DNA from: Candidatus Latescibacterota bacterium
Lineage (GTDB): Bacteria > Krumholzibacteriota > Krumholzibacteriia > WVZY01
Length of the DNA: 33,911 nt
Reading direction: 5' to 3'
NCBI GenBank assembly: GCA_020352495.1
Contig: CP070677.1
Location: 1,658,984 to 1,692,894 of the forward strand
Each line of letters opens with the position of its first letter. The first letter of the stretch is position 1. The notes below the pieces were generated by a model that was not told the DNA's origin, made no database searches, and was given only the letters and a program-made list of their open reading frames with translations. The translations under genes and the position numbers were made by a program. Of the stretch, positions 3,462-30,946 are shown piece after piece.

Positions 3462-3519
3462 CGGAGCGTCGGGGGCCATCCATGATCCGTCCTTCGTCCA
3501 CGCGGGATAGCGGGCGAAG

Positions 3520-3635
3520 GGCCGAGGGCCGGTCTTTTGGACACCCTTTGCGCAGGAGCGAGCGAGGATCACCCCCCGTCAGGCGGGAAGCCGAGCGAAG
3601 CGGGCGCAGGGTGGTCAAAAGACCGGCCCTCGGCC
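3520..3635. repeat. Long hairpin element, copy 1 (conserved core with private arms)
   Basis: Arms of 20 bases (3520-3539 and 3616-3635) are perfectly complementary. They enclose a core (3544-3611) that matches the core at 30811-30877 in 63 of 68 aligned columns. The core ends, CCCTTTGCGC and GCGCAGGG, also pair. Further in are purine-rich strands, GGAGCGAGCGAGG on one side and CCGAGCGAAGCGG on the other. A small hairpin CCCCCC-GTCA-GGCGGG (one C-C mismatch) sits in the centre. No T-run follows on either strand, so it is not a canonical intrinsic terminator, though it may still end transcription between the convergent HIT and Minf_1886 genes. It lies 44 nt beyond the stop of the minus-strand gene at 3680-4048. 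It is either a structured RNA or a mobile or hairpin-DNA repeat; the sequence alone does not decide. Confidence 0.85.
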
Positions 3636-3679
3636 TGTAAAACTGTCCCCGCGGCTTGTCGACGAACAACGCACCAAGA

Positions 3680-4048
3680 CTACTCGAAATACTTCTCCTC
3701 GAGGATCTCTTTGAGATCATATTCCTGATCGAAGTCTTCGAAGCGATCGCCCGCCTGTTTGGTGAGCACTTCGGCATCAACCAGATAGTAAACCGCCAGA
3801 CCGATATCCTTTGCCGTTTCCAGCCCCCAATCGGTGAGGACGGTGTGCGCGAGCAACCCGAATTTTTCCTTGGCCAGGTCAAAGAGCCCCGTGAGCAACT
3901 CGGTGGCGGTCACATGCCTGTGTTCCCCGAACCGCTGAAGTGTATATTCCAGCGACTCCATGATGAACGCGTACGCTTCTGGTTTGAACCGGTTGTCTCT
4001 CTCACAAATCTTCTTCACCGCCTCCCAGAACTTGACATCCTGATTCAT
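3680..4048 (-). CDS. Minf_1886 family conserved protein
   Basis: This 122-residue protein is recognised as the Minf_1886 family (TIGR04138), a conserved uncharacterised family first described in Planctomycetes and Verrucomicrobia. The match runs along the whole length: EAYAFIMESLEYTL near residue 24, the RHVTATELL segment, and LTDWGLETAKDIG near residue 72. No catalytic motif, signal peptide or membrane segment is visible, and the acidic C-terminus ends EEKYFE. Its GGTGG ribosome site touches the bshA stop and the gap is 9 nt, so it is the last gene of the nadB-bsh operon. Hairpin copy 1 begins 44 nt past its stop. The function is unknown; the operon position suggests a link to thiol metabolism but does not prove one. 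Confidence 0.85.
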   Translation of the reverse strand: MNQDVKFWEAVKKICERDNRFKPEAYAFIMESLEYTLQRFGEHRHVTATELLTGLFDLAKEKFGLLAHTVLTDWGLETAKDIGLAVYYLVDAEVLTKQAGDRFEDFDQEYDLKEILEEKYFE

Positions 4049-30741: not shown

Positions 30742-30946
30742 GACCTCGAGGCTCTGGTTGCCGGAGCGCAGGGGTCGAGTTTGTGTGCGGACGAAGAACG
30801 ATTCGCAGTGCCCTTGGCGCGGAGCGAGCGAGGATCACCCGCCGCAAGGCGGGAAGCCGAGCGAAGCGGGCGCAGGGCCAAGAATCGTTTTTCGTCCGCA
30901 CACCAAGTGAATCCGCACGATCTCCGGCAACCAAAGATCCGAGGTC
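30742..30946. repeat. Long hairpin element, copy 2, between polA and coaE
   Basis: The core at 30811-30877 matches copy 1 in 63 of 68 columns. Around it are inner arms of 22 bases (30783-30804 and 30882-30903; one non-Watson-Crick pair, G-T on the plus strand) and outer arms of 25 bases (30742-30766 and 30922-30946; 21 of 25 pair). The outer arm covers the polA stop codon. The centre is CCCGCC-GCAA-GGCGGG, a perfect 6-bp stem with a GNRA-type loop on the plus strand. Neither arm resembles those of copy 1. No T-run follows. Copy 2 lies 41 nt past polA (inner arm), copy 1 lies 44 nt past its gene, and both have the same orientation relative to that gene. Confidence 0.85.

Follow-up and report, generated by a model that had tools for sequence, protein, structure and literature searches.

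MITEs share terminal inverted repeats. The hairpin described here is like them in being short, non-coding and present in many copies, with empty sites in relatives, and unlike them in that its ends are variable in the genome in which it was noticed and in that neither a parent transposon nor a clear target duplication was found. With REP elements and the TnpA-REP (REPtron) system it shares the form of short extragenic palindromes in many copies. E. coli REPs, in the part of one report drawn on here, are 29–37 bases long, conserved mismatches within their stem matter for recognition, and several stem positions are kept in common (PMC8266576); the present element measures about 120 bases, with a fixed tip and a free basal stem. 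It further differs from REPs in having no GTAG among its invariant columns, and its two high-copy genomes (G000 and G004) give no match to the Y1 transposase family PF01797. Repetitive hairpin elements of sponge mitochondria, as portrayed in part of another report, are also dispersed in intergenic DNA and thought to be mobile, but conserve their stems and take substitutions in their loops (PMC2800124), the reverse of what is found here. Like intrinsic terminators, the element forms GC-rich hairpins close to gene ends; unlike them, it shows no U-tract enrichment, and its conserved core spans about 50 bases.

The element was noticed twice in a 33,911-nucleotide stretch of contig CP070677.1 from a Candidatus Latescibacterota bacterium, referred to as the window. 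The source genome of the window is designated G000, a sister species G001, and other genomes of the same family G002 to G005.

Results

Features of both copies are listed in Table 1. The first-pass annotation had described a common core and private arms, and both descriptions held: the stretches 3544–3611 and 30811–30877 are identical in 63 of 68 aligned columns, and the arms are unlike between the two copies (13 of 30 columns aligned on each side) and complementary within each, 3520–3547 pairing with 3608–3635 in copy 1 and 30783–30804 with 30882–30903 in copy 2. Arms of 20 bases with up to two mismatches and a loop of 40–89 bases were found 19 times in the window, counting overlapping registers, and not once in one shuffled window. 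Copy 1 is flanked by a HIT-domain gene and a Minf_1886-family gene.

Table 1. Positions of the two window copies and their parts. R1 is the covariance model described in the text.
Feature	Position	Strand	Remarks
Copy 1, whole element (model positions 1–120)	3517..3637	+	R1 118.5 bits, E 5.2e-28; among the 37 training sequences
Copy 1, left private arm	3520..3543	+	pairs with 3612–3635
Copy 1, inner stem 5' side, CCC-TTT-GCGC	3544..3553	+	3:1 asymmetric loop TTT/A kept; a 3:1 loop is present in all 37 aligned copies
Copy 1, conserved core GGAGCGAGCGAGGATC...GCCGAGCGAAGCGG	3555..3603	+	GA-rich internal loops and apical stem-loop
Copy 1, inner stem 3' side, GCGC-A-GGG	3604..3611	+	
Copy 1, right private arm	3612..3635	+	
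Copy 2, whole element, between polA and coaE	30782..30903	+	110 bits, E 8.5e-26; training sequence
Copy 2, left private arm	30783..30810	+	
Copy 2, conserved core	30821..30869	+	
Copy 2, right private arm	30878..30903	+	
Outer 25-base inverted repeat around copy 2, left half	30742..30766	+	score 15
Outer inverted repeat around copy 2, right half	30922..30946	+	shares its last two bases with the predicted polA stop

Read from the foot, the structure consists of 21 arm pairs, CCC/GGG, the 3:1 loop, GCGC/GCGC, GGA/GG, GC, GA/GAA and GC, continuing towards the tip with GA/GA, GG, ATCA/AAG and an apical CCCGCC-NNNN-GGCGGG stem. The basal stem is about 24 bp with a near-constant length, and conservation and pairing die away together about 37 bases to the left and about 33 bases to the right of the core. 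Unpaired GA-rich core bases are among the best conserved positions across genera; one core pair covaries (G-C in 21 of 37 copies, A-U in 11 of 37). Where the core starts, within the hairpin, there is a GGAG. At the foot, neither GTAG nor any near-invariant tetranucleotide was found, and the outer columns carry low information.

A 20-base core pattern (up to two mismatches) occurs 46 times in the 4.31-Mb source genome and never when read backwards. Six of these copies were left out because of masked letters in their arms, leaving 40; the alignment also omits L012 and both copies at L040, whose arms are unpaired. The covariance model R1 was built from the remaining 37, and the same 37 of 46 were used for the arm search. 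At E ≤ 0.1, R1 gave 59 matches in G000 (51 over the full model of the ∼120-bp hairpin and eight partial), 51 in G004, 15 in G005, 13 in G002, 10 in G003 and one in G001. The first-pass annotation had allowed for a genome that held just the two window copies; with 46 pattern copies and 59 model matches in the same genome, this case does not apply. For comparisons with relatives, 35 regions (36 matches) of the 51 in G004 were used, together with 25 regions (28 matches) of the 38 in G002, G003 and G005.

A broader model (R2; E ≤ 0.01, strict filters) matched all six family genomes, which represent five genera, at 1 to 59 copies each, and none of the remaining 74 among 80 genomes searched in the class. 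Note that the stricter filters lose weak matches and that at most 45 candidates per genome were scored with R2, compared with 150 in the R1 survey. One weak match with GA-rich loops and long arms was obtained in G006, from another family of the same order (L087, 741–856). Its E value was 0.046 with R1 over whole genomes and 0.001 over 27 fetched loci alone, with no match to R2 at 0.01, and it is possibly a distant relative of the hairpin. A looser 18-base pattern (two mismatches), applied to 58 genomes, gave 0 to 7 occurrences per genome outside the family versus 0 to 3 for the backward control; G014 has 12, mostly in one tandem run. The exact pattern was found nowhere in a genome contig collection from which the source genome or near genomes may be absent. 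A single match in viral contigs, within a long open reading frame and without a hairpin, was set aside as chance. The comparison with Rfam that had been proposed placed the element in no family: Rfam 15 gave nothing in the window at gathering score, and the nine matches to 3480–3680 at E ≤ 10 were all under their gathering scores. No description of the element was noticed in literature searches, which covered open-licence papers.

Genome-wide alignment, which had been suggested as a check, showed that the arms covary. Across 37 G000 copies, 22 of 24 basal pairs are changed on both sides, and the covariation score was reached by none of 500 shuffles. Taking the entire structure (1479 cells), 88.7% are standard pairs, as opposed to 71% in shuffled and 32–44% in slid controls; for the basal helix the figure is 82.5%. 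Two further sets, the three being disjoint, gave 81.7% standard pairs for 36 copies from G004 (75.2% in the basal helix) and 88.6% for 30 copies from G002, G003, G005, G001 and G006, with 0 of 500 shuffles reaching the score in either; both alignments were fitted to the model structure and therefore lean towards the model. Counted in register, at least 19 of 21 arm pairs form in 28 of the 37 G000 rows and 5–11 in the other nine. When indels were allowed, a pairing score of at least 10 was attained by 37 of 40 copies in G000, 10 of 34 in G004, 11 of 12 in G002, 7 of 9 in G003 and 1 of 6 in G005. By eye, five G004 copies (L211, L213, L216, L223 and L224) look chimeric, combining a left arm from one of two G004 arm subfamilies with a right arm from the second, so that their arms pair poorly. 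Where good pairs stand on both sides of a mismatch, the mismatch was G-U in 65 cases, A-C in 39 and other in 84 (G-U versus A-C, p = 0.014), and this modest G-U excess hints mildly that folding takes place on the GA strand.

Near-perfect arms that are unrelated between copies would also arise if template switching within the palindrome, rather than selection, kept them complementary by copying each mutation from arm to arm. Such blind correction should, however, erase the 3:1 loop, which persists in 37 of 37 copies, and the GA loops, which persist as well; by eye, an asymmetric loop within the arm also persists in G002 and G004. Because the conserved internal loops have not been erased, we regard template switching as improbable.

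Over 666 copy pairs in G000, arm identity and core identity are unrelated (Spearman 0.02, p = 0.52), and a gapped comparison of 40 copies gave 0.08 (p = 0.02). For the nine pairs with identical cores, mean arm identity is 0.43, where column composition predicts 0.39. Weak correlations were obtained in G004 (0.19, p = 8e-6) and G002 (0.28, p = 0.02), and values of 0.10 in G003 and 0.03 in G005 were not significant. Core and arm likeness, respectively, are 90% and 42% in G000, 81% and 64% in G004, 89% and 64% in G002, 75% and 40% in G003, and 86% and 52% in G005; one G004 and one G005 copy with weak core matches were skipped, and a partial G004 match was dropped. Mean arm identity compared with shuffled arms is 0.42 versus 0.35 in G000, and 0.64 versus 0.37 and 0.39 in G002 and G004. 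The terminal arms are unshared in G000 and partly shared in G002 and G004.

In the duplicate pair L021/L043, the right arms are 96% identical, the cores differ at two positions and the likeness continues into the flank. L024 and L027 have a 17-base arm stretch in common by eye, which is under the 0.75 cut-off of the comparison. Since arms are 64% alike in G002 and G004, and one is common to L021 and L043, arms and core appear to be copied together, the arms afterwards diverging while pairing is maintained; they do not look newly made from the target. The same figures mean that the earlier contrast with an ordinary mobile repeat, expected to have common ends, does not settle the matter. Selection on shape is likely to be almost separate from selection on sequence in this hairpin. 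Private sequences of 20–30 bases adjoining a constant part might alternatively be guides or targets of an antisense or CRISPR-like kind. The arms are self-complementary, however, and when 37 right arms were searched against the genome (E ≤ 10) none of the 60 matches lay outside the repeats: 58 fell on the query itself or on the arm it pairs with, and the other two on the L021 duplicate and on a partial repeat next to L026. We find a guide function scarcely credible.

At four of four comparable G000 sites (polA–coaE, both L032 sites and L023) the sister species is without the element, and the gap between aligned blocks is 20–72 bases in G001 versus 176–231 in G000. Copy 1 of the window was not comparable, because G001 aligned on one side alone. 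The element is likewise absent between polA and coaE in G004; between prfB and lysS it is present in G004, and G000 has 44 bases and no element. The empty sites could instead be losses in G001 (polA DNA 75% identical, assembly 80% complete). No clear target duplication was seen, the DNA at the empty sites being too diverged, and L202 has a possible short repeat by eye. When 44 G000 loci were compared with 61 loci of relatives, two shared with another genus an element on the 3' side of the same gene (L018/L243, in opposite orientation, and L030/L254); these are possibly old shared sites.

At L199 a complete element lies within the core of another, whose outer arms still pair around the inner one, and L202 and L254 resemble this nested locus by eye. 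Tandem arrays of half-elements stand beside complete copies, with periods of 76–77 bases in G004 and G003 and 94 bases in G000. They were seen at L211 985–1560 (G004), at L250 985–1420 (G003) and at L018 and L040 (G000), with units of 3' half plus right arm (76–77 bases), left arm plus 5' half (77 bases, 96% matches) or core plus right arm (94 bases).

The first-pass annotation had also raised the possibility of a hairpin into which an element inserts, so that the private arms would be the stems of pre-existing hairpins whose loops had received the core. Elements lying within other elements would suit this, as would a further outer palindrome (23–25 bases) at two G000 copies, copy 2 and L039. 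The outer repeat of copy 2 scores 15, versus a control maximum of 13.5 in one test, and is exceeded by 2 of 1680 cross-copy controls (17 and 20); the test is uninformative for G004, where arms are alike between copies. These outer palindromes are perhaps the arms of an older element whose core was lost. Inverted repeats were listed for about 200 kb around the copies, a non-random sample (score at least 14 in the window and at least 16 elsewhere, loop up to 120), and all 29 enclose a core. One of the 29, the extra repeat at L019, is a divergent copy (1818–1936) with a G003-like core, inverted and adjoining a typical copy. Given also the near-constant arm length, a weak arm consensus shared between copies and the lack of any arm at the four empty sites, insertion of a core into ready-made hairpins is very unlikely.

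Gene calls and gene ends were taken from our own gene-calling script, and site counts and distances are raw values. Convergent, tandem and divergent sites, respectively, number 10, 31 and 5 among 46 copies in G000; 10, 21 and 3 among 34 in G004; 2, 7 and 3 in G002; 2, 5 and 2 in G003; and 3, 2 and 1 in G005. Because every tandem gene pair presents a 3' end, what counts is the 10 versus 5 and the distances. Median distances to gene 3' and 5' ends are 47.5 and 146.5 bases for the 40 unmasked G000 copies, 86 and 202 in G004, 24 and 41 in G002, 17 and 97 in G003 and, reversed, 75 and 47 in G005. Overlap with a predicted gene was found for 0 of 40 copies in G000, 3 of 34 in G004, 3 of 12 in G002, 1 of 9 in G003 and 1 of 6 in G005. 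Among 63 tandem cases from five genomes, 32 elements have the same orientation as the genes and 31 the opposite one (0 and 5 in G003). U-tracts (at least five T in eight, within 20 bases) are not enriched, occurring on the two sides in 5 and 8 of 40 copies in G000 (background 0.144) and in 3 and 5 of 34 in G004 (background 0.174). At L030, a hairpin and T run resembling a canonical intrinsic terminator (about 2114–2150) separates the element from the neighbouring gene, which suggests that G000 has ordinary terminators. A structured RNA had been suggested at the outset; its conserved core, its freely evolving, covarying stem and its many copies were borne out. The status of a functional RNA was not, as orientation to genes is random overall and the mild G-U excess alone names the folded strand.

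The main rival to mobility is a cis-acting hairpin that the host selects at each locus as a 3'-end structure, ending or protecting transcripts from either side, with a protein-bound core and drifting arms. The nearness to 3' ends in G000 fits, as do arms that stay paired though unrelated between copies and a core conserved across genera. Convergent sites outnumber divergent ones in G000 and G004 (10 versus 3 in the latter), but not in G002 (2 versus 3) or G003 (2 versus 2), and the neighbour gene at L030 has a terminator of its own. Random orientation, nesting, the lack of U-tract enrichment, and a sister species with one match and four empty sites also speak against a host hairpin, which we judge unlikely.

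Matches to three enzyme families were sought. Y1 transposase (PF01797, E ≤ 0.001) gave none in G000, G001, G002, G004 and G005 and one in G003 (genomes 65–96% complete), and TnpB (PF07282) gave none in the six genomes. IS110 (PF02371) gave one in G000, four in G003 and six in G004, and none in G002 (13 element matches), G005 (15) or G001. None of the three tracks copy number.

Discussion

We lean towards the view that this family-restricted, 120-bp hairpin repeat spreads as a non-autonomous mobile palindrome, composed of a recognition core and a stem that has only to pair. The hairpin is likely to be a new family of small mobile element. This is suggested by the conservation of the core including its unpaired G-A bases, the co-changing stem, intergenic copies in either orientation, empty sites in the sister species, at least one nested copy and arms common to one recent duplicate pair. 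The conserved core is probably what a putative enzyme recognises, whereas the stem need merely pair. This enzyme would work in trans, recognising the core on the strand that carries the GA loops; each move would copy the arms together with the core, and the copied arms would then drift, selected for pairing alone. Resident copies may take on a host role, for example as 3'-end hairpins.

Several observations sit less easily with mobility. No mobilising enzyme was found among the three families tried, arm and core are weakly correlated in G004 and G002, the G-U excess is modest, and two sites may be old and shared. Because L021 and L043 remain alike beyond the arm, in the flank, this pair may reflect block duplication rather than transposition. 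A core that is 90% identical next to arms at background similarity calls for many old copies in which the core is under selection, and host function explains this more easily than mobility alone.

More tentatively, the mobile palindrome may belong to a new class in which the enzyme reads the tandem-GA core at a folded, single-stranded tip and the 24-bp stem serves as a sequence-blind handle. New copies would then favour existing hairpin tips, building the nested copies and the tandem half-arrays.

If the hairpin is a host element, it would be an abundant one close to gene ends, of a kind for which no description was found in open-licence papers. If it is mobile, its machinery differs from that known for REP elements. 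The conserved core is short and defined, and can act as bait in a search for a protein that would recognise it. With some 150 matches in six genomes and five genera, the family constitutes a natural experiment that separates constraints on sequence from constraints on structure within one 120-base element.
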